From Verrucomicrobiaceae bacterium (GTDB taxonomy: Bacteria > Verrucomicrobiota > Verrucomicrobiia > Verrucomicrobiales > Verrucomicrobiaceae), in NCBI GenBank assembly GCA_027487315.1, contig JAIYDW010000110.1:1-60596 (forward strand): DNA of 60,596 nt, in the 5' to 3' direction. The notes under the pieces are model-generated. The model was not told the DNA's origin. It ran no database searches and worked only from the letters and a program-made list of their open reading frames with translations. Positions 29,856 to 38,936 of this stretch are shown in pieces (positions within the stretch are counted from its first letter, which is position 1; each line of letters begins with the position of its first letter). A program made the position numbers and the translations under genes.

Positions 29856-29940
29856 CTCTTGTCAGCCCGCCCAACTGGCAACACATTGCAGGTCCTCTGA
29901 GCGCCTGCGCCACATGCCGCCAGCGCTCCCCCTCGAGATC

Positions 29941-30261
29941 ATGCCTCCTCCAAAAAAACGCTTCCAAAGCCGCCCCGGCGGACACTCCGGTAACCGCGGT
30001 TCCTTCGCCAGCAGAAACCCCATTCGCCGCAATGAGGAAGAACCGGAGGACAAAGAAGCCGCCATCGAACTCGAAGGCACCGTCACCTCCGTCCTCGCAG
30101 GCACCATGTTCCGGGTCAAACTCCCGAACGCCCACGAAGTCCTCGCCCACATCTCCGGCAAAATGCGCAAGCGCTTCATCCGCCTCGTCGTCGGCGACCG
30201 CGTCAAAGTCGAAATGTCCCCCTACGACCCCGACAAAGCCCGCATCGTCTACCGCCTCTGA
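29941..30261 (+). CDS. infA: Translation initiation factor IF-1 with N-terminal extension
   Basis: The C-terminal part is a normal IF-1 OB fold: [55 protein letters not shown] (given here as a region, residues about 45-100), ending [10 protein letters not shown]-1 is usually 72 residues. From the ATG at 29941 this one has 106, with a basic, Pro/Arg/Ser-rich leader ([17 protein letters not shown]) and an acidic linker (EEEPEDKE). A still earlier ATG (29914) exists. IF-1 binds the ribosomal A site with IF-2 and IF-3 at initiation. The tail may be a ribosome or RNA contact, which is inference. Confidence 0.88.
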
Positions 30262-30751
30262 GCCCCGCCCCGTTGCCGCATTCGCCAGAAGGCGACCTCC
30301 GGAGCGCGGAATTCCAATTCCGCAGCACCCCGCCCGCTCACCCACCCCTCTCGCCTAAAACCCCGTCCCCACGCCCGCAGGCCACCGCCTGCCATGGACT
30401 GCGGCAGCCCGCTGCAGCTTTCCCCCAGCCAGCCCGCTGGCGCCCCAACGCGGCAAAGCCGCCACTTCCCTCTCCCCGTTCTGTAGTCCCGCCTTCAGGC
30501 GGCTCCCCCCATCTCCCATCTCCCGTCTCCCATCTCCCATCTCCGGCGGCAAAGCCGCCACTCCCTTTCCCCCGCCCCTTCGCCCTTAGTGCCTTCGTGT
30601 GAGCCCCTCAGCACACCTCCCTCTCAACGTTCAAAGTTCAACGTTCAGCGTTCGACGTTAGTCCCCCCGTAGCCGCATTCACCAGAATGCGATCCCCCAC
30701 CCCCGCAAACGCACCTCCCATCGCCCCCGCTAGCGCCTAGGCGACACGCCC
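30262..30751. repeat. Cluster of dispersed palindromic and simple repeats
   Basis: No gene is seen. In order: a CCAGAA-centred hairpin (30275-30294); an element beginning CTGCCATGGACTGCGG shared with 12666-12720; GCGGCAAAGCCGC (30450-30462); several CATCTCCC direct repeats (about 30505-30543) joined to GGCGGCAAAGCCGCC (30545-30559), a pair found again at 43211-43255. Then come the GTTCAAAGTTCAACGTTC family (30623-30660), a second CCAGAA hairpin (30674-30691) and GCGCCTAGGCG (30733-30743). It forms the boundary of the cassette array. Confidence 0.7.
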
Positions 30752-30817
30752 CCCTAACCAGGTCCACGAAGCCCGCCGAGTGGTCGCACTTCAAAGTTGA
30801 AACCACCCTTGTTAGTT
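30752..30817 (-). repeat. Short attC-like site at the array's distal end
   Basis: About 66 bp bounded by CCTAAC (30753-30758) and GTTAGT (30811-30816), with inner complementary segments ACCACT/GGTGGT. On the minus strand the stop codon of the 123-residue lipoprotein gene sits inside the inverse core (AACTAACAAG), as is common for attC sites. It is shorter and different in sequence from the others. Confidence 0.5.
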
Positions 30818-31183
30818 ACTTCTAGGATTCGAGTTCCCATGCTCGTCGATGTAGTCAGAGAAATCGGCCTTGCTTGAGATACTTATCGGCAGTCGATGCC
30901 TCGCCACTAGCTCCATCACATTCTTCCACACGGGCGGCGGCTCGCTATTACCGACCTCACGGTAGTAATAGACGACCCCATCCTGAGCCTTGACCTCAGC
31001 CATGCGGGAATCTAACGACTCCAGCTTGGTCTCGGTGCCATCCGCTAATAGGGAGCCAGATTGAAGGACCGATACCTTTAAAATGACGGACGTGTTCATG
31101 GTCTTTTCTGTCCTCGCAGGTTTCTTCTGACACCCCAACTGCAATGCCAACATCAGCAGGGAAAGGATGGTGATGCGTTTCAT
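30812..31183 (-). CDS. Cassette-encoded hypothetical lipoprotein
   Basis: This 123-residue protein has a signal peptide and lipobox (LSLLMLALQLGCQKK), so it is probably anchored in a membrane by a lipidated cysteine. The mature part has a short beta-rich region (VILKVSVLQSGSLLADG), the phrase VVYYYREVGNSEPPP and a helix VWKNVMELVARHRLP, ending DFSDYIDEHGN. I do not recognise a family. It is the last gene of the cassette array. A weak attC-like end (GCCGAAC at 31190) lies 6 bases upstream of its start, and a clear short site overlaps its stop. Confidence 0.7.
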   Translation of the reverse strand: MKRITILSLLMLALQLGCQKKPARTEKTMNTSVILKVSVLQSGSLLADGTETKLESLDSRMAEVKAQDGVVYYYREVGNSEPPPVWKNVMELVARHRLPISISSKADFSDYIDEHGNSNPRSN

Positions 31184-31189
31184 ATTTTT

Positions 31190-31286
31190 GCCGAACGACT
31201 ACCTCATCCACGTCGGGGATGGAAGCCCAAATTCAAAGAAGGAAGTTGCCCACCGTTGGATGCAGCGTCTCGTTGAAACGTTCCGG
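31190..31286 (-). repeat. Degenerate attC-like site
   Basis: It begins with GCCGAAC, 6 bases upstream of the lipoprotein start, and ends near CGTTCCGG after the previous gene's stop. GAACG and CATCCA(A)C occur as inverted copies. The interior lacks the words shared by the other sites, so this call rests mainly on position and end sequence. Confidence 0.4.
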
Positions 31287-31544
31287 TCATTTGGTCTGAA
31301 AGTATGGCACAAGAATGGACTCCGCTCGGGCTATGTCATCGTCATGGACCCAAAGATGATGAGGCGTTGGAGATGGAGAAACTCCGGGACGTGCATCTGG
31401 GGAAATGTAGAACGTAACGGAAGCCTGCTCCAATAGTGCTCGAACCGTTGGAATACCTGCGTCCGAGTATGAACCGAACGAAGTCCACGGATCGTTGTCC
31501 TCGGCGTCTGCCCGCTCTGATTCCATTGGAGAGTCTTCGTTCAT
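31287..31544 (-). CDS. Cassette-encoded DUF2007-like protein
   Basis: This 85-residue protein fits the DUF2007 (putative signal-transducing) fold. A first strand and helix in which a sequence-independent switch is made (WTSFGSYSDAGIPTVRALLEQASVTFYIS) is followed by a loop and then HHLWVHDDDIARAESILVPYF, the usual end of the domain. The function of this family is unknown; it is found across many phyla and is sometimes fused to zinc ribbons. GTTCGGC (31568-31562, minus strand) lies 17 bases before its start. A frame on the opposite strand is less plausible. Confidence 0.6.
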   Translation of the reverse strand: MNEDSPMESERADAEDNDPWTSFGSYSDAGIPTVRALLEQASVTFYISPDARPGVSPSPTPHHLWVHDDDIARAESILVPYFQTK

Positions 31545-31561
31545 GAGATGGCGCGAGTTAC

Positions 31562-31640
31562 GCCGAACAACTCGATCAGGCGACGGCGAGCGTCAATGGA
31601 ACGAATCGAGTGGAACGAGATAGACATCCGAGGGATGCCT
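31562..31640 (-). repeat. Half attC-like site
   Basis: The end next to the DUF2007-like gene is typical (GCCGAAC then CAGGCGACGGCGAGCG), but the other half with GACAGAT and the GTTTTGTTCG end is missing. The last codons of the upstream membrane-protein gene read into it. It is probably a truncated site. Confidence 0.5.
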
Positions 31641-32115
31641 GTAGGGTGCGAGTGGAGACTCGCATCAACTGACCTTGCTTGTCAAAGACAACCCAAAGGG
31701 CATCACCGGCGGGTCGTGGCAACACGTCGCTGACATGACAGATCGCCTCCGAACCATTACCTACCTTCGTTTTGTTCTCCTTGGTGTTGTTGAAGTATCG
31801 TGTTGCTTCTTCGATCACAATAGCGATCAGCAAAAGGAGAATGGCCGCTCCGACGCCAACCCAAAGTGCCTTCAATGCCTGAGCACCTTTAGAAGTTTTT
31901 GGTGGCTGCCCGGAGATCGAAACCATCGCCAGAATGTGGCAAATGATAAACGAGGGAGCACCGATAACGAAGGGAATGAAAAGGATCTCGGGCTCATAGG
32001 AACGCCCCAAGATGTGGAGCAGCGGCCAAACAACCCCCGCCACAATGAATAGCATGGCGCAACCGTATGAACAGCCGCCGGAGGTGTCTTTAGTCGGTTG
32101 CTTCGGTTCAGACAT
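31576..32115 (-). CDS. Cassette-encoded hypothetical membrane protein
   Basis: I placed the start at 32115 (MSEPKQPTKDTS). The open frame continues upstream, but there it only translates the attC-like site. The 179 residues have three hydrophobic segments (AMLFIVAGVVWPLLHIL; EILFIPFVIGAPSFIICHILAMV; ALWVGVGAAILLLLIAIVI) and a soluble C-terminal part. The last dozen residues (STRFVPLTLAVA) are read from the half attC-like site, so the natural C terminus may have been lost or replaced there. I do not recognise a family. Confidence 0.65.
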   Translation of the reverse strand: MSEPKQPTKDTSGGCSYGCAMLFIVAGVVWPLLHILGRSYEPEILFIPFVIGAPSFIICHILAMVSISGQPPKTSKGAQALKALWVGVGAAILLLLIAIVIEEATRYFNNTKENKTKVGNGSEAICHVSDVLPRPAGDALWVVFDKQGQLMRVSTRTLQASLGCLSRSTRFVPLTLAVA

Positions 32116-32129
32116 CTCCGTTGTGGTAA

Positions 32130-32223
32130 GGCGAAAGCTTCGGATCACGCAAGGGCGATCGACACCTGTCGATGACACGACAGATGCCATACGAGCCGCT
32201 GGCTACATCCGTTTTGTTCCGCC
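32130..32223 (-). repeat. attC-like site
   Basis: 94 bp, from GGCGAAA (32130) to GTTCCGCC (32216-32223). It holds GATGACACGACAGATGCC and CATCCGTTTTGTTC, the array's common interior. An extra GATCGACACCTGTCGAT palindrome lies in its middle. It sits 14 bases upstream of the membrane-protein start. Confidence 0.65.
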
Positions 32224-32255
32224 TTGAAGGGCCGTTTGATTCGCTGTGCCGGGAA

Positions 32256-32888
32256 TCAGTCATTCGTGATCTCATATTGGTGACAGTATCGAATGCCAAT
32301 TTCAATCCGCGCCGTGATAAAGAAGCCGAACGACTGTCGGAAGTTTCTGGCATCATGGCCAATGTGTTGATACATCTCGCTCTTGTAGTCAAAGTTCGTC
32401 ATCCAATCCGAAATCTCCTTCCGGCGTCGTTCAAGAAATGTTGAATCTGCCCCCTCCTCCTCGAGCAGCGCAATCTCCTTATCCAATCGGCTCTCAGCGG
32501 GACCCTGCCTTAGCCAACCAAGCGAATCCGCCCGCACTCTAGTGACGCGCTTGCCAGACACATAGACGTAAACAATGGCAAACTCCTCTCGAACGATCCG
32601 GCCTGATGGCAGAGTGATCGTGGCATCCGTGGTTCCCTGAATGTTACAAACTGAACTCCCCTCGCCCAATGAAAACCAATCAACATCTGGTATCCCGGAA
32701 AGGTCCTCTGGATGACGAAAATCGATGGTCATCTTGCGGTATGGATCGCTCCTCAAAGACCTGCAGAACTCGCCATCTGGCTGGTCAGGATAGAGCTCCG
32801 CGTCAACCTCCGTCTGCGACTTCTTCTTATCGCAAGCAACAATGATGATCATCGAAGCGCACACAAGCGATGTCGTGAAGCGATTCAT
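32256..32888 (-). CDS. Cassette-encoded hypothetical lipoprotein (210 aa)
   Basis: The start at 32888 is preferred because it yields a signal peptide with lipobox (SLVCASMIIIVACDKKK). The frame upstream just reads through the neighbouring attC-like site. The mature part has acidic and aromatic stretches (FCRSLRSDPYRKMTIDFRHPEDL), then beta-rich text (TITLPSGRIVREEFAIVYVYVSGKRVTRVRA) and a C-terminal helical region (EIALLEEEGADSTFLERRRKE). I do not recognise a family. A core-like end lies 4 bases upstream of the start codon. Confidence 0.68.
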   Translation of the reverse strand: MNRFTTSLVCASMIIIVACDKKKSQTEVDAELYPDQPDGEFCRSLRSDPYRKMTIDFRHPEDLSGIPDVDWFSLGEGSSVCNIQGTTDATITLPSGRIVREEFAIVYVYVSGKRVTRVRADSLGWLRQGPAESRLDKEIALLEEEGADSTFLERRRKEISDWMTNFDYKSEMYQHIGHDARNFRQSFGFFITARIEIGIRYCHQYEITND

Positions 32889-32892
32889 TAGT

Positions 32893-32987
32893 GGGCAGAA
32901 TGACTCGGACGAGGCGACGGCTAGCGGAAGACGTTCCTGATACGACAGATGCCATACCAGCCGATCCCTGCATCCATTTTGTTCAAC
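32893..32987 (-). repeat. attC-like site
   Basis: 95 bp, from GGGCAGAA (32893) to GTTCAAC (32981-32987). The interior carries GAGGCGACGGCTAGCGG, TGATACGACAGATGCC and CTGCATCCATTTTGTTC. It sits 4 bases upstream of the lipoprotein start and 7 bases after the next gene's stop. Confidence 0.65.
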
Positions 32988-32994
32988 TCTTGGT

Positions 32995-33390
32995 TCATTG
33001 GGGTTCGCACCAGACAATCTCTCGGATGTCAGGATCGGATTCGAGAATCTTTCGAAGCGCCTCGAGGAGGCGTGTGAGCTGTAGAGTCGCATCAATCGTC
33101 CGAAATAGCTTCTTCACCTTTGGAGTGCTCGGGTCCGTGAAAACCAGAAACTGATCATCATCGCCGCTCTGATGACCGCAGCAAAGCGCGAGACGAAATC
33201 CCTCATTTCGAAGTGGCAGATAGCATCCCCAATCTTCGATCGCCATCTCTCCGGTCTCGATCCCATGCTCGGCGAGCTTCTGCGCAAGGTACTCAGTCAG
33301 CCGCTTCCCCCAAAGCCCTGGATTGATTTCTTCTTCCTCACCTTCGTACGGCGGGAACTTCGATGAACGAAACTCAACTTGCGTCTTCAT
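32995..33390 (-). CDS. Cassette-encoded hypothetical protein (131 aa)
   Basis: This is a soluble protein of 131 residues with no signal peptide. Distinctive parts are VEFRSSKFPPYEGEEEEINPGLWGKRLTEYLAQKL, then EDWGCYLPLRNEGFRLALCCGHQ, then DDQFLVFTDPSTP, ending DPDIREIVWCEP. The pattern recalls a widespread family of small uncharacterised proteins of about 130 residues found in proteobacterial accessory regions. I cannot name a Pfam entry with confidence. It is one gene per attC-like unit, with the site 9 bases before its start. Confidence 0.7.
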   Translation of the reverse strand: MKTQVEFRSSKFPPYEGEEEEINPGLWGKRLTEYLAQKLAEHGIETGEMAIEDWGCYLPLRNEGFRLALCCGHQSGDDDQFLVFTDPSTPKVKKLFRTIDATLQLTRLLEALRKILESDPDIREIVWCEPQ

Positions 33391-33399
33391 AGATTCTTG

Positions 33400-33492
33400 G
33401 ACGAACGCCCCGGATTAAGCGACGGCGAGCGTAGGATGTTACTGACACGACAGATCGCCTTCGAGCCGTTGTCCGCATCCGTTTTGTTCGCT
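33400..33492 (-). repeat. attC-like site
   Basis: 93 bp, from GACGAAC (33400) to GTTCGC (33486-33491). The interior carries GCGACGGCGAGCG, TTACTGACACGACAGATCGCC and GCATCCGTTTTG. It sits 9 bases upstream of the 131-residue gene's start. Confidence 0.7.
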
Positions 33493-33510
33493 TTCTTCAT
33501 CGTGTTTGGG

Positions 33511-33897
33511 TCATGGCCGAATTCCAAATCCGGCTACGATGAACAGCAATCCGAACGCAATGGGAATGACGGAAAAGATCAGCCGATTTCCAGAGGTCAG
33601 GACTTCCGGCTCTTTGCCTTCTGATGACACCAAGACATCAACAAGTGTTCCTACAGGAATAGGGACACTGGCCCCATACTTGGAGACAAAGCAACGGGTC
33701 TCCTCTCCAATCGAATACTCGATCTTTGGGGAGTAGCAGGCACCTCCTTCACTGGGGGCATGATCCTTGATGATCTCGACAACAACTCCCTTCACTGCAA
33801 CCCCTCCACGACGCCTAAACCAGGTAAACTCGTGCGCCACCCCTAAGGCAATGAACGCCAACCCAAAAACGACGAAAGCTATTGCAAGAAGGCTCAT
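33511..33897 (-). CDS. Cassette-encoded DUF3592-type membrane protein
   Basis: This 128-residue protein has two membrane segments (LLAIAFVVFGLAFIALGVAHEF and IFSVIPIAFGLLFIVAGFGI) flanking a beta-rich domain of about 70 residues. The domain includes VKGVVVEIIKDHAP and YSPKIEYSIGEETRCFVSKYGASVPIPVGTLVDVLV, the DUF3592 signature. The domain faces the cytoplasm or periplasm; its function is unknown. DUF3592 proteins turn up in accessory regions of many bacteria. A core-like GTTCGGC lies 6 bases upstream of the start. Confidence 0.8.
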   Translation of the reverse strand: MSLLAIAFVVFGLAFIALGVAHEFTWFRRRGGVAVKGVVVEIIKDHAPSEGGACYSPKIEYSIGEETRCFVSKYGASVPIPVGTLVDVLVSSEGKEPEVLTSGNRLIFSVIPIAFGLLFIVAGFGIRP

Positions 33898-33903
33898 GGA
33901 TTA

Positions 33904-33991
33904 GCCGAACGCGACCACTCAGGCGACGGCGAGCGCAAGACGTTGCTGACACGACAGATAGCCTTCGAGGCCTGCATCCGTTTTGTTCGGC
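33904..33991 (-). repeat. attC-like site, clearest example
   Basis: 88 bp bounded by exact inverse copies GCCGAAC (33904-33910) and GTTCGGC (33985-33991). Inside the ends, CAGGCGACGGCG pairs imperfectly with CAGGCCTCGAAGGC in inverted orientation, giving the bulged stem expected of attC. The shared words TGCTGACACGACAGATAGCC and TGCATCCGTTTTGTTC are present. Confidence 0.72.
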
Positions 33992-34013
33992 CCTTGTTGG
34001 TATTGGGCAGAGC

Positions 34014-34574
34014 TCATAGCTTCGATGAAATCCTGCCTGCCTCTCTCAGGTCCTTCAATCTGGCTTCTATCTTTGGTGGCCAATCCGGTGGCATGGCTAA
34101 GTGGACACCAAACTCACCAGTGCGAGCGATCTCTCGAAGGCGGTCGATGCTGATCTCCTTACCTTTCTGAAATATGCGCCCCTTCGAGTCCATCACAAAG
34201 TGGCGATCACGCTTTCTGATCGTGCGATAATACTCCGTCAGGTCCTTGGTGTTCGAATACCTAGGGAGCCAAATGGTGACACGATCTGTGGCAGTCCACA
34301 TAACAGGACAAATGCAGCAACTACAATCAGGCTCACCCAGTGACTCAACTCCCAAGACTCTTGGGACACTCTTCAAGTTCTGACTTAGCCGCTGCTTCTG
34401 ATCGGCTGTCAGCGTAAGGCACCTACGGCTACCAACCTCATCGATCTGAGTTGGCGTGAGGATCACAACAACATGGGGTATCGTCTCGAGAGCCCAGGTG
34501 AGCCGAAAGCCGTCCGCAAATGCTGAAGACACCGCTGCAAACACGATGACCAAGGCTGCTCTAAAGGACTTCAT
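34014..34574 (-). CDS. Cassette-encoded hypothetical exported protein (186 aa)
   Basis: This 186-residue protein has a signal peptide (MKSFRAALVIVFAAVSSAFA/D). The mature part begins FRLTWALETIPHVVVILTP. It has a cysteine cluster (DCSCCICPVMW) that could bind metal or form disulfides, and then a region with YRTIRKRDRHFVMDSKGRIFQKGKEISIDRLREIA. I do not recognise a family. A core-like GTTCGGC lies 21 bases before the start and an exact one lies just after the stop. Confidence 0.68.
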   Translation of the reverse strand: MKSFRAALVIVFAAVSSAFADGFRLTWALETIPHVVVILTPTQIDEVGSRRCLTLTADQKQRLSQNLKSVPRVLGVESLGEPDCSCCICPVMWTATDRVTIWLPRYSNTKDLTEYYRTIRKRDRHFVMDSKGRIFQKGKEISIDRLREIARTGEFGVHLAMPPDWPPKIEARLKDLREAGRISSKL

Positions 34575-34595
34575 GGCGTTGGACTCTGTTTCTTG

Positions 34596-34688
34596 GCCGA
34601 ACGCTTCGCATCAGGCGATCGAAAGCGCAAGGTGTTGCTGACACAACAGATACCCTTCGTGCCGATGCCTGCACCCATTTTATTCGCC
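34596..34688 (-). repeat. attC-like site
   Basis: 93 bp, from GCCGAAC (34596-34602) to ATTCGCC (34682-34688). The interior has TTGCTGACACAACAGATACCC and CTGCACCCATTTTATTCG. It lies 21 bases upstream of the 186-residue gene's start. Confidence 0.7.
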
Positions 34689-34719
34689 CTTGTATGGTCG
34701 TGTGATTCTGATGCTTGAA

Positions 34720-35103
34720 TCATGGTGTCTGGGTATCGAGCTCTGCCAACGGTTCGTCGGTGTAGAGTGCCCAGCACTGCTCACAGAGCGGATCGCCCTG
34801 ATCTGTGTGATGTCGCTGGGAGATGACTTAAGTAGCTCGTATCCCGTCCGTGGCAACTGTCCAAGTCTCACATCGTGAGCAACGACACGAGTCTGCAACA
34901 ACCGGCGTCCCCAAGTGAAGAAGATGCGTCGAGTCCCAGTTTGCCTCGAAACCATGAGACGCAAGGCGCTGAACTATCAGGTCTCGAATTTCCTCGGAGA
35001 TGGAACCGGTGATCTGGCTGAGGTCAGTGCCCTGTAAGACCTTCGGCAACCGCACCGTCCATGAGACGTGCAACTCGGACGCTGGCTGGTTCTTCGTAGA
35101 CAT
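34720..35103 (-). pseudogene. Cassette gene for a zinc-ribbon protein, interrupted by an in-frame stop
   Basis: From 35103 the frame encodes 91 residues and stops at a TAA (34830-34828). If read through, the same frame continues for 35 more codons to a TGA at 34720. The first part holds CRCSRCETW and the second DPLCEQCWALY, the two halves of a CxxC...CxxC zinc ribbon split by the stop. The simplest reading is a nonsense mutation in a gene of about 127 codons. A genuine short product of 91 residues is possible but would lack half its zinc site. The N-terminal part (SWTVRLPKVLQG, EIRDLIVQRLASHGFEANW) is not a family I know. Confidence 0.65.
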
Positions 35104-35123
35104 GGCGATTGGCGCTGTCAGTT

Positions 35124-35218
35124 GGGCGAATGCTTCGGATCAGACGCCGGAGAACGTAACACGCTGCTGACACAACAGATAGCCTTCGTGCCGTTCCCTG
35201 CATCCATTTTATTCGCCC
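35124..35218 (-). repeat. attC-like site
   Basis: 95 bp, from GGGCGAAT (35124) to ATTCGCCC (35211-35218). The shared interior includes CGCTGCTGACACAACAGATAGCC and CCTGCATCCATTTTATTCG. It lies 20 bases upstream of the zinc-ribbon gene's start. Confidence 0.7.
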
Positions 35219-35220
35219 TT

Positions 35221-35733
35221 CTATTCGCGTGATAGCTTTGCATGGCGGAGTTTCTGATTGGCTTCAAATTCCGCATGAGTCCACGGACGAATCAGGCCGT
35301 CCTTATCACGAACGAATGACAGCATGACTTTCTGCTCGCGGGTGAAGCGCCACTCGCCGGGTGAAATGGAATCTGCCTGACTCGTCAACAACCGCCCCCC
35401 CTCGGGGAGGCTGTGTTGAATCGAAGTATGCATTTCAGGTTGTTTCTTGTTTTCAGGAAAATCATAAATCACCATGAAAGGTTGCTTCTCGAAATAAAAG
35501 GTGTGGCTCACTCTGTCGATCGTTTTGCGGTCACTCGTCAGCCAAACATCACGAGTCAACAAGACCGCCTCTCCGCTTTTGAAGACAATGGTGTCGTGGA
35601 CGAGATCATTGACTGTTTCGGAGTAAATCAGGCTGCTCTTGATAGCGGTTGGCAATGCCGATGAATTCAGCGCATCGGTGTCAGCGAGACAACTGGACGC
35701 AAAGAGGATCAATGCTGATATCGTGGCTTTCAT
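35221..35733 (-). CDS. Cassette-encoded hypothetical exported protein (170 aa)
   Basis: The ATG at 35733 gives a signal peptide (MKATISALILFASSCLA/D). A TTG 12 bases earlier is a less likely start. The mature region begins with a helical stretch (SALPTAIKSSLIYSETVNDLV) and is followed by beta-rich text (HDTIVFKSGEAVLLTRDVWLTSDRKTI; HTFYFEKQPFMVIYDFPEN). It ends in a charged tail with WTHAEFEANQKLRHA. I do not recognise a family. The stop lies three bases from the attC-like site. Confidence 0.68.
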   Translation of the reverse strand: MKATISALILFASSCLADTDALNSSALPTAIKSSLIYSETVNDLVHDTIVFKSGEAVLLTRDVWLTSDRKTIDRVSHTFYFEKQPFMVIYDFPENKKQPEMHTSIQHSLPEGGRLLTSQADSISPGEWRFTREQKVMLSFVRDKDGLIRPWTHAEFEANQKLRHAKLSRE

Positions 35734-35750
35734 TGGAGGCGGCAATTCTT

Positions 35751-35844
35751 GGACAAAAGGCTCAGATCAGGCGACGGCGAGCCCAAGACGTTGCTGACGC
35801 GAAAGATAGCCTTCGAGCCGTTTCCTGCATCCGTTTTGTTCGCC
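35751..35844 (-). repeat. attC-like site
   Basis: 94 bp, from GGACAAA (35751) to GTTCGCC (35838-35844). The shared interior includes CAGATCAGGCGACGGCGAGC, GTTGCTGACGCGAAAGATAGCC and CTGCATCCGTTTTG. It lies 18 bases upstream of the 170-residue gene's start. Confidence 0.68.
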
Positions 35845-35863
35845 TTGATTGGTTGTTCAGGCT

Positions 35864-36397
35864 TCATTCTTCTTTGGGCTTCACCGAATGATTCTGAAGG
35901 TCGATGGGCTTCTTGTCGAAGCTGATACCATCGGGAAAAAGGGTATCGAAACCAAAATGCGCTTCGATCAGAAACGGGCCATCAATCTCGTTGCCCTTTG
36001 GTGCGGTAACAAAACGGTAGAATGGGAATACGACCTTGAATCCTGTGACCTTGAAGTCTCGATACGGTTCGGGCGATGCACCGTTCTCGACATACTTCGT
36101 GCGCTTCTCGACGGAAGCGAACTCGCCGAGAAGAATCAGATGCTGCTCAAAGTAGGCTCCTCGAATCGTATGCGGCTTCTCGGTCCCACACATTTGGGCG
36201 TCATGAAAAGCTTCAAGCACAGCAAGAGACTTCTCGTCCGAGTCCTTACTGATGATAATCGTGGTCTCTTTACCCTTCGAATCGACAACCACGTTTCCGA
36301 GGCCTGTGACTCCATCCAAGTGCCGGTATCGGAACTCCTCCGCACCCGCAATGGACACCGTCAGCAACAGACTCAGGAGCAATGGTCTTGGACTCAT
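35864..36397 (-). CDS. Cassette-encoded hypothetical exported protein (177 aa)
   Basis: The 177-residue protein has a signal peptide (MSPRPLLLSLLLTVSIAGA/E). The mature part includes GVTGLGNVVVDSKGKETTIIIS, a helix-like SLAVLEAFHDAQMCGTEK, then KVTGFKVVFPFYRFV and FLIEAHFGFDTLFPDG. I do not recognise a family. An AGGCGAAC core-like end lies 18 bases upstream of the start. The gene's composition is visibly less GC-rich than the flanking housekeeping genes. Confidence 0.68.
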   Translation of the reverse strand: MSPRPLLLSLLLTVSIAGAEEFRYRHLDGVTGLGNVVVDSKGKETTIIISKDSDEKSLAVLEAFHDAQMCGTEKPHTIRGAYFEQHLILLGEFASVEKRTKYVENGASPEPYRDFKVTGFKVVFPFYRFVTAPKGNEIDGPFLIEAHFGFDTLFPDGISFDKKPIDLQNHSVKPKEE

Positions 36398-36414
36398 GGT
36401 GGTGCTTGGCAGTC

Positions 36415-36543
36415 AGGCGAACAATTCAGATCATCGACAAAAACGTCCCTTTGTCAGCACCTTTATATCCGACAGATGGGTTCCTTGACGACCGGATTTT
36501 GAACTCATGAGGTTGCTTTCACCACGCACAGGCGCGCAAAGCC
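36415..36543 (-). repeat. attC-like site plus conserved flank (type B)
   Basis: It begins AGGCGAAC (36415-36422) and carries CTTTGTCAGCACCTTTATAT, GACAGATG and GGATTTTGAACTC, with the 35-base flank ending GCGCGCAAAGCC. It is homologous to 443-570 and 37220-37348. The first 93 bp or so aligns with the shorter sites of the array (for example 35124-35218). Confidence 0.65.
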
Positions 36544-36544
36544 C

Positions 36545-36650
36545 CCCTCACTTTCCCTTCGCACCCCCATCCACCGCTCCCGTCCCAGGCACTGCACCGC
36601 CGCATTCCCCGAAACCCCAGGCGCAATCCCCGCCGCCAGCACCAGCCCTC
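36545..36650 (-). pseudogene. Relic of the GH75-like gene's 3' tail
   Basis: About 100 bp aligns with the last codons of the 520-residue gene at 37374 (minus strand, tail ...GTGAVDG-SAKGK; here GTGAVDGGAKGK), including the stop codon. The stretch sits between the 141-residue membrane-protein gene and a type B attC-like site, exactly as the intact tail sits beside another one. No start or body of the gene is present. Confidence 0.65.
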
Positions 36651-36769
36651 CCCAGCCTTGCTCCAAAACTCCTAGCTTGTGTGGGCTTCGCAACCAAAGC
36701 CAACTTGAAGGTTCGCCGCAGTTGGAAACTCCACTGCAGTGAACGGATCGTTGGTATCCATGCTGTCAT

Positions 36770-37195
36770 TCAACAAAAGAAGGCGATGAGGGCAGCCACA
36801 GTCGCATACAAGCAAACGGGCAAAATGATCAACGCACTGACCCCAATAAAGGGTCGTTTCAGCCACCAAACCTCCTTGGAACCGTGCAAACGCAGGCGCA
36901 CTGCGTGGCTAGACCACGCTCTAAATACAAACGTCAAGATCACCGGAGGTAGTGGCAAACAAAGCAGTGCAAACCAGAAGCTTCTGTTACTCCAATCACT
37001 ACTCATCATACTAAACACCGGCAGCCAGGCAACCCCAAGGAAGACCGGCATCAGAACACACAGAGCGCGGTCGAGAAAGTGTGAACTATTGAAGAACAAA
37101 GAGATCCCTGCGATGAATGCTAGGAGCCAAACCAATCCGATGAGGCCAAAGTCAATCAGCACGACTGGCGTGGCGGGTCCAAAGTGCGGTATCAT
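36770..37195 (-). CDS. Cassette-encoded hypothetical membrane protein (141 aa)
   Basis: This 141-residue protein has about four membrane helices: VLIDFGLIGLVWLLAFIAGISLFF, ALCVLMPVFLGVAWLPVF, WFALLCLPLPPVILTFVF and PFIGVSALIILPVCLYATVAALIAFF. A Trp-containing basic loop lies between the last two. There is no family I recognise. Its stop is followed by about 130 bp of non-coding sequence and then a relic of the neighbouring gene's tail. A core-like GTTTGCC lies about 25 bases upstream of the start. Confidence 0.68.
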   Translation of the reverse strand: MIPHFGPATPVVLIDFGLIGLVWLLAFIAGISLFFNSSHFLDRALCVLMPVFLGVAWLPVFSMMSSDWSNRSFWFALLCLPLPPVILTFVFRAWSSHAVRLRLHGSKEVWWLKRPFIGVSALIILPVCLYATVAALIAFFC

Positions 37196-37219
37196 GGCAT
37201 CCTAGTCGCTCTCGAAGTT

Positions 37220-37348
37220 GGGCAAACAATTCAGATCATCGCCAAAAACGCCACTTTGTCAGCACCTTTATATCCGACAGATGGGTAACTTGACGACGGG
37301 ATTTTGAACTCACGAAGTCATTTTAGCCACGCACAGGCGCGCAAAGCC
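37220..37348 (-). repeat. attC-like site plus conserved flank (type B), array's proximal end
   Basis: It begins GGGCAAAC (37220-37227), then CTTTGTCAGCACCTTTATAT, GACAGATG and GGGATTTTGAACTC, then the flank to GCGCGCAAAGCC. It ends about 25 bases past the stop of the GH75-like gene. It is the first site after that gene on the minus strand. Confidence 0.65.
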
Positions 37349-37373: not shown

Positions 37374-38936
37374 TCACTTCCCCTTCGCACTCCCATCCAC
37401 CGCCCCCGTCCCGGGCGCAGTCCCAGTCACAGGCGCAACCCCATTCCCCGGAACCCCAGGCGCAGTCCCCGTCGCCGGCACCGTCACTGGCGCCACCACC
37501 GGCACCGCAGGCACCACAGGCTCCACCACCGGCTTCGGCCACTCATGCAGCTTGTACCCCACCCCAACCCCCCCCACCTCATTCAAATACTCAGTCACCT
37601 TCTGCTCCCACACCTTCAAATCCGGCGGCCCCCACGGCTTCACCCCCGTCCCCGGAAAAATCACATACGTCACCTTCAAATCACTCTCCGGCCGCCGATA
37701 CGGCGTCGACTTCTCATTCACCGCCTTCGCCATCATCAAACTCGCCTCCCCCATCTTGTAACTCGGCCCATAGTCCCCGCAAATCGCCGGGTAAATCTTG
37801 TCCCCATACACCACCGCCGCATAGTCCCCCATCCCCGGCGTGAACGCATTCTGCCCCTCATACCCCCGAAACAGCAGCGATAGCACAATGAACGGATCCT
37901 TCTCCGCAATCAAACTGCTCCTCGCCTTCATATCCTTGATCTCCAACTCCACCTGCTTCATCCCAGACTTCAACTCCGCATTCCGCGCCGCCGAAAGCCC
38001 CTTCACCGCATACTCCGCCTTCAGCTTCGCCAGCCGCCCCTCCCACTTCGCCAGCAGCGGATTCGGCGTCGTCGACTTCTTCGCCCACGCATAGCTCGTG
38101 AACGGCTGGTAGTAGTCGGACATGTAAATGTACTCATCCAGCTTCGGCATCCGATCCCCGTCCGACCCATCCGCCACCACATCCATCTCCGATTGAATGA
38201 GAAGCATCTTCCGCTGCGTCGTCGGGTGCGTCAGCTCCAGAATCGTCTCGCAATCAAAAAAATTGTGCCGGTCCAGCGCCTTGCTCAAACGCGTCACATC
38301 CGTCTGCACCCGCCGCGTCTTGTTCTCATACAGCTTGTGGTAAAAAGCCGAAACCTTCCCCGTCTCCACCAGCGTCCCCAGCCCCGGCAGCGCCTTCGGC
38401 AAATGCTCATTGATCCGCGAAAGCTCCGCCACACTCTGATTCGCCTTCGGCACCCGAATGCTCAACTGAAACTCCGCCTTGTAAGCCTCAGGATCCAGCC
38501 TCTCCAAGCTCGCAAACCCACCCTGCTCCGTCACCAGCTTCGTCTTCACCGTGATCCCATTGAACAGCGTCGCCACATCCACATCCTTCCTCCCCACATA
38601 ATCCTCCGGCAAAGGCGGCTGCACCTCCTTGATCACCTCCACCTCACGCACCGTCTCCTTGATCACCTCCACCGGCACCTCCCGAATCACCTCCCGCTCC
38701 ACAATCTCCGGCTCACCCGACCCCCTAGCCTCCCTCACGATCTCCTGAATCCCCCGCTTAATCCTCCCCGCAAACGGCGTGAACGGCAGCACCAACCCCA
38801 CCGCCAACGCCACCAGAACCAAAACTCGGATCAACGTACTCAAAACCCCCGCCTTCTTCGGCCTCGGCCCGCGCCAATCCCCACCTCCTGTTTCAGGATC
38901 GTTTTCTGGGGATAAGCTCGGAGGAAAGTCACTCAT
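37374..38936 (-). CDS. GH75-family chitosanase-like protein, membrane anchored
   Basis: This 520-residue protein has a short cytoplasmic start and a membrane helix (TLIRVLVLVALAVGLVLPF). A Val/Glu-rich coiled segment (EIVEREVIREVPVEVIKETV) follows, then a catalytic-type region. That region has FNGITVKTKLV, GDYAAVVYGDKIYPAICGDYGPSYKMGEASLMMAKAV and SDLKVTYVIFPGTG, which match the GH75 endo-chitosanase pattern, including the Asp in GDYGP and Glu in GEAS. A Pro/Val/Ala-rich tail ends the protein. GH75 cleaves chitosan-like polymers; here it is tethered to the membrane. The tail is duplicated at 36545. The call is from motif memory. Confidence 0.7.
   Translation of the reverse strand: MSDFPPSLSPENDPETGGGDWRGPRPKKAGVLSTLIRVLVLVALAVGLVLPFTPFAGRIKRGIQEIVREARGSGEPEIVEREVIREVPVEVIKETVREVEVIKEVQPPLPEDYVGRKDVDVATLFNGITVKTKLVTEQGGFASLERLDPEAYKAEFQLSIRVPKANQSVAELSRINEHLPKALPGLGTLVETGKVSAFYHKLYENKTRRVQTDVTRLSKALDRHNFFDCETILELTHPTTQRKMLLIQSEMDVVADGSDGDRMPKLDEYIYMSDYYQPFTSYAWAKKSTTPNPLLAKWEGRLAKLKAEYAVKGLSAARNAELKSGMKQVELEIKDMKARSSLIAEKDPFIVLSLLFRGYEGQNAFTPGMGDYAAVVYGDKIYPAICGDYGPSYKMGEASLMMAKAVNEKSTPYRRPESDLKVTYVIFPGTGVKPWGPPDLKVWEQKVTEYLNEVGGVGVGYKLHEWPKPVVEPVVPAVPVVAPVTVPATGTAPGVPGNGVAPVTGTAPGTGAVDGSAKGK

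Follow-up and report, generated by a model that had tools for sequence, protein, structure and literature searches.

How is an array of gene cassettes filled when no integrase gene lies beside it? Integrase-less arrays are common, and it is debated whether they arise by loss of the integrase gene (intI) or by off-target insertion. We addressed this question for an array in a member of the Verrucomicrobiaceae. The window, i.e. the whole stretch of DNA analyzed here (60,596 bp, JAIYDW010000110.1), is the entire contig C20 of genome G000, a draft of 5.87 Mb in 256 contigs. The array occupies the minus strand at 37.35–30.75 kb, deep inside the contig and not at its edge. This is a genuine integron cassette array, in which the attachment site (attI) platform is physically apart from the integrase, and we consider it probable that the recombinase is supplied in trans from elsewhere.

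The array comprises eleven short open reading frames (ORFs) in one direction (141, 177, 170, 91, 186, 128, 131, 210, ~179, 85, and 123 amino acids (aa)) with related elements between them, an arrangement proposed in an earlier note on this DNA and borne out by the ORFs and the alignment. That note described all spacers as attC-like elements of ~90–95 bp. This holds for seven of them, sites c–i (91–96 bp), in which the interior words it had listed do recur; of the others, the first two are attI, site j is ~235 bp long, and site k represents a second attC type. Sites c–i lie on the minus strand at 35751–35846 (c), 35124–35219 (d), 34595–34690 (e), 33903–33993 (f), 33399–33494 (g), 32894–32989 (h), and 32129–32224 (i). 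They have complementary ends (GGCGAAC/GTTCGCC), are closely followed by the start codon of the next gene, and align with ~75% mean column identity. Their consensus, AAGGGCGAAC-AAAA-CGGATGCAGGC...GCCGTCGCCTGATCCG-AAGC-GTTCGCCC, consists of outer arms, a 4-base internal loop, inner arms, and a variable centre, with an extra unpaired base (G) in the left L arm. Site j (31548–31785, minus) is a long variant whose central region is extended; a reading as an attC split by an insert was rejected, given its 83–86% identity to sites on contig C158 of the same genome. Site k (31190–31275, minus) is like one in the integron on contig C139, and the two regions share 82% mean column identity. A possible short terminal attC-like inverted repeat (30745–30818, minus) is weak.

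A covariance model was built from sites c–i and one C139 site. The window sites, themselves part of the model, score 83–103 bits, and ~25 more sites were located elsewhere in G000, most at E 1e-7 to 1e-26, on C72 (10), C154, C158, C191, C139 (beside intI), and other contigs. A chance origin of the sites is excluded by these scores and by the further sites in the same genome. Matches were found in 35 of the 57 genomes searched, nearly all from the same family; a specificity check on 79 loci (590 kb), mostly from unrelated genomes, gave one match only, a Verrucomicrobiales integron. The expectation that an attC model would match was thus confirmed, with a model of the array's own sites recovering others next to intI and throughout the family. 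The model and the 148 distinct sites available for covariation analysis display imperfect palindromes with paired R and L arms, spacers, and a variable centre, as is characteristic of attC. Compensatory change occurred in 25 of 27 pairs (11.7 expected from shuffles), a count biased towards the structure to which the alignment had been fitted. The covariation score was 0.148 versus 0.084 in shuffles and was equalled in 0 of 500; site relatedness inflates this shuffle control, and sliding the pairing abolishes the signal. The 8-sequence alignment alone gave no excess of covariation over shuffles.

The sites also record how cassettes would have been joined. If IntI cuts at G^TT, the right arm R′ passes to the next cassette, and the left arm R″ should match the R′ at which its own cassette begins. 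Across 94 consecutive site pairs, the complementarity of R″ over 6 bases was 4.37 to the own-cassette start, compared with 3.54 to R′ of the same site and 3.45 to a random R′; 55 pairs favoured the own-cassette start and 13 the same site (permutation p < 5e-5). This affiliation of R″ also accounts for the weaker pairing of the outer arms (76%) compared with the inner arms (~95%) in the 148-site set. This complementarity, a GTT-bounded 503-bp cassette in genome G034, and the position of window cassette 3 directly on attI in genome G003 point to a gene plus its attC, cut at G^TT, as the unit of movement.

Two elements at the head of the array, copy a (37222–37348, minus, crossover G of the core at ~37227) and copy b (36417–36543, minus, core at ~36422), are 89% identical to each other. 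They were also considered as diverged attC sites, which was rejected based on the lack of an attC-like fold and their homology to the attI region beside intI. On C139, the stretch from intI to the first cassette shares ATAAAGSTGCTGAYAAA...TGATCTGMATTGTTCG with both copies, along with weaker similarity over ~130 bp. The pairwise match to C139 is modest (31 for copy b and only 24 for copy a, with a shuffle maximum of 26). A model of copies a and b and the C139 region (R2) places the element between intI and the first cassette in G002:C36 and G018:C368, both outside the model, and a later attI model (R3) adds G034:C26. Homologues of the window elements therefore occupy the canonical attI position in G000:C139, G002:C36, G018:C368, and G034:C26. 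Copies a and b belong to a type 2 attI, as does a third window copy (444–570, minus) near the end of the contig, which contains no integrase; behind this third copy, a DUF1254-containing ORF with a signal peptide-like start is cut by the contig end. The attI adjoining intact intI in G000 and most relatives is of type 1.

Further attI copies in G000 were found on C158 and C109, neither with intI nearby, and a weaker one on C237. The C158 copy is followed by a sulfatase gene and the C109 copy by a class D beta-lactamase gene. The sulfatase gene (G000:C158:3750-5279, L077), encoding 509 aa, is an unusually long first cassette between the detached attI and an attC-like site. The beta-lactamase (G000:C109 ~33710-34564, L141:3711-4565, minus), the first gene behind its detached attI, is OXA-2/OXA-46-like; it passed the NCBIfam class D main model and reached 373 bits with the OXA-46 model, below that model's own cut-off. 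Such beta-lactamases are otherwise known from resistance integrons.

The same attI position was compared between sibling species. The left chromosomal flank of the array is a gene for a 520-aa protein with a C-terminal Glyco_hydro_75-like domain (37374–38936, minus). Orthologues were present in 35 of 36 comparison genomes, and the same attI lies behind them in G003 (98%) and G001 (97%). Among G000, G001, and G003, with flanking proteins 97–98% identical, this one attI position carries three different first cassettes, in line with the differing cassette content anticipated by the earlier note. Window cassette 3 takes the first place in G003 (99% over 99 bp to the contig end), its match abutting the end of the attI match. 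In G001 this place is taken by a different gene, of 60 aa, and behind it the 3′ end of the 520-aa gene is present once more. A similar 3′-end copy lies behind the first cassette of the window (36544–36643, minus; L142:3090-3205 in G001), and the preceding cassette is without a full attC in both genomes. As read from the sequences, both 3′-end copies carry common bases absent from the original; thus the duplication looks ancestral, with a different cassette in the slot. The window attI may accept cassettes via IntI, of which the different cassettes on the same attI in G000, G001, and G003 would be an indirect sign. The attI model had no match at the 520-aa gene of the more distant G002. On the other side of the array, an empty site was sought beside the gene for translation initiation factor IF-1 (29914–30261, plus), the right chromosomal flank, where gene order was not conserved and no match was found in G001 or G003.

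Where, then, would the recombinase come from? Contig C20 has no match to TIGR02249 (intI), and neither intI nor an intI remnant was found in the window, consistent with the array without adjacent integrase that had been described for a Verrucomicrobiota genome. The earlier note, which suggested a search of the rest of the genome for intI, had missed that the genome does encode it: G000 contains two such genes over the NCBIfam cut-off (265 bits), on C139 (368 bits) and C7 (337 bits). Both products match Vibrio cholerae IntI4 (PDB 2a3v), the closest protein in the PDB, end to end (E 2e-65 and 1e-62), and the alignments span the IntI-specific insert and the conserved C-terminal motifs expected of a tyrosine recombinase. 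The C139 array holds both attC types of the window, whereas the sites of the C7 array are visibly different. The same integron lineage therefore made the window and C139 arrays, and the proposal that the sites came from the lineage's own integron stands, the same sites occurring beside intI on C139 and across the family. Two further loci of G000 are of interest in their own right. The C7 locus (G000:C7:1827-3101, L010) is a second integron with a different attC type, whose IntI has an N-terminal extension of ~110 aa; a similar long IntI was also found in G003. An IntI-like recombinase on C206 (G000:C206:223-1113) scored 228 bits, below the family cut-off, and attC-model matches occur elsewhere on this contig.

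Detached attI copies recur across the family. Model R3 identified attI-like elements in 17 of the 57 genomes, several of them on long contigs that show no trace of intI in the kilobases upstream. An attI followed on the same strand by window-type attC was found in G034:C11 and C15, G017:C10, G021:C3, G012:C4, G035:C34, and G028:C94, and by other attC types (assigned by eye) in G034:C17 and G033:C1; on G035:C48 and G028:C63 the contig ends too close upstream to exclude intI. An exact 17-mer scan of named genomes (relatives of the family being named Verrucomicrobiales/Verrucomicrobiaceae) gave 91 stretches, with a full-length attI in only three Verrucomicrobiota records; the remaining stretches look like chance. 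Copies in the attI tree cluster by genome, which indicates that attI was copied within lineages.

Genome G034 offers the closest view of such copying. It harbors intI and attI on C26 and three further attI, 90–94% identical, without intI on C17, C11, and C15 (contigs of 154–178 kb). The shared block of ~180 bp starts within the first codons of intI, which suggests duplication by segmental copying from inside the 5′ end of the gene. On C11, where attI lacks intI, the first cassette recurs as an internal one in the intI-linked C26 array, with 499/503 (99.2%) identity. The match runs exactly from GTT to GTT, with attI upstream in one case and attC in the other, and the sequences diverge immediately downstream. 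Such a trace would be expected of an IntI acting in trans, although the direction of transfer and the enzyme are our inference from sequence. Over 811 bp (96.4%), C15 and C26 also have attI and the first cassette in common, as could follow from segment copying or from insertion.

We propose that insertion takes place behind the 520-aa gene, at the point marked by attI copies a and b; circular cassettes (gene plus attC) would be inserted there at the G^TT of the attI core and could be excised again through their attC sites. The recombinase would act in trans and would most likely be the C139 IntI, which has its own array with the same two attC types; the site may still be active. Detached attI platforms of this one genome include the window copies (37.3/36.5 kb and 0.5 kb) together with the copies on C158 and C109. 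For the family, we lean towards a dispersed integron, with one integrase gene, several remote attI platforms, and cassettes moved in trans, so that some arrays without a neighbouring integrase would be headed by attI and still fillable.

Several observations weigh against an array served in trans. Folding energies of single sites (minimum free energy, z −1.9 to +1.1 versus shuffles) are unremarkable and not decisive for the bulged stem that the earlier note had predicted, which is supported by the 148-site covariation. The textbook attC core site is GTTRRRY, and known attC cores vary; R′ here is GTTCGSC and departs from the textbook form. GTT itself is kept in most sites, with c (TTT) and d (ATT) as exceptions, and the attI adjoining intI in G000 has a like core (ATTGTTCGGG); the deviant core lowers the textbook match but leaves the attC assignment standing. 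The type 2 attI of the window and the type 1 attI at the intact C139 intI are 60–70% alike, and the C139 IntI may use type 2 copies poorly. Type 2 is not inherently dead, as the intI-linked attI of G034 groups with it in the attI tree. Cassette 1 has no clear attC, and a search for cassette genes that the window array might share with its intI-linked counterpart in G000 found none. In G010:C5 (L145:7994-8192), from a genome of the same family, a type-2 attI is immediately preceded by broken intI fragments; this seems to be an intermediate in the loss of the integrase and indicates that some detached platforms arose in this way.

This last case speaks for the idea that each detached array was once complete with its own, later deleted intI, so that the array is now static and the differences between species predate the loss. 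Type-2 attI are otherwise mostly without intI, and intI loss is known in other genera, e.g. Xanthomonas (PMC12444791). A history of this kind nevertheless appears unlikely for the window, since three of the four near-identical attI of G034 lack intI and one of these carries a cassette with a 99.2% identical counterpart in the intI-linked array, so that movement is recent there, and since G000, G001, and G003 already differ in their first cassette. Insertion at secondary sites (attG), which has been described (cited in PMC12901181 and PMC12444791), would instead make the shared ~130-bp element a dispersed intergenic repeat acting as a hot spot. The element is indeed dispersed, but its entire length is homologous to the sequence separating intI from the first cassette, and in G034 the similarity begins in the first intI codons; it is therefore an attI and not an unrelated repeat, and we regard a hot spot of this type as very improbable. 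An ordinary gene cluster with hairpin repeats, such as repetitive extragenic palindromic (REP) or miniature inverted-repeat transposable element (MITE)-like sequences, would account for imperfect palindromes between short genes. It is refuted, to a negligible residue of doubt, by the same sites beside intI, the G^TT signature, and the exact cassette transposition in a relative.

None of the three outcomes named beforehand as contrary to an integron-like array (no attC model hits, no bulged stem, the same genes fixed in order among relatives) was obtained, and that interpretation is supported. To it are added the attI head, the IntI encoded elsewhere in the genome, and the recurrence of detached attI platforms in the family.

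The cassette genes themselves, all on the minus strand, offer few functional clues. Of ten cassette proteins scanned, none passed a Pfam cut-off, and the sole weak match was to DUF2007. Cassette 1 (36770–37195, 141 aa) resembles a membrane protein and has no recognisable attC behind it; cassette 2 (35864–36397, 177 aa) has a signal peptide-like start. They are followed by cassettes 3 (35221–35733, 170 aa), 4 (34828–35103, 91 aa), 5 (34014–34574, 186 aa), 6 (33511–33897, 128 aa), 7 (32995–33390, 131 aa), and 8 (32256–32888, 210 aa). The frame of cassette 9 (31576–32115, ~179 aa) continues through site j, which may encode the C terminus of the protein. Cassette 10 (31287–31544, 85 aa) gave the DUF2007 match, below the cut-off, and cassette 11 (30812–31183, 123 aa) ends the array. 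An Rfam scan of the window returned one tRNA and nothing else.

Integrase-less arrays in this family thus carry true attI sites, which standard tools do not seek outside class 1 integrons (PMC9024848). If these platforms are served in trans, one integrase would manage several insertion points in different chromosomal contexts, which would change the view of cassette expression and stability; a search for attI at the heads of integrase-less arrays is an easy genomic test of this idea. Searches of the open-licence literature yielded no account of one intI with several attI at remote loci, which is no proof of absence. The array closely resembles a cluster of attC sites lacking integron-integrases (CALIN), the class suggested by the earlier note: it has seven to nine attC sites with no neighbouring intI and could in principle be mobilised in trans (PMC12444791, PMC9024848). 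A CALIN is defined by attC and the lack of intI alone, whereas this array is headed by the lineage's own attI copies and is not a plain CALIN. With sedentary chromosomal integrons it shares similar, lineage-specific attC, cassette genes of mostly unknown function, and an intI in the genome, but its platform is detached and the intI-linked array (C139) is a separate locus. It differs from a complete integron in that attI is present without an adjacent intI. With the attI-type gene cassettes of class 1 and 2 integrons (PMC12901181), an additional attI likewise lies within an array, comparable to copy b; for the most part, however, these are short and partial attI fragments at the ends of cassettes in resistance integrons, whereas here whole ~130-bp attI regions head arrays at several chromosomal loci. 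Insertion at attG also puts cassettes at loci away from intI, but attG sites are unrelated sequences, whereas the platforms described here are attI paralogues.

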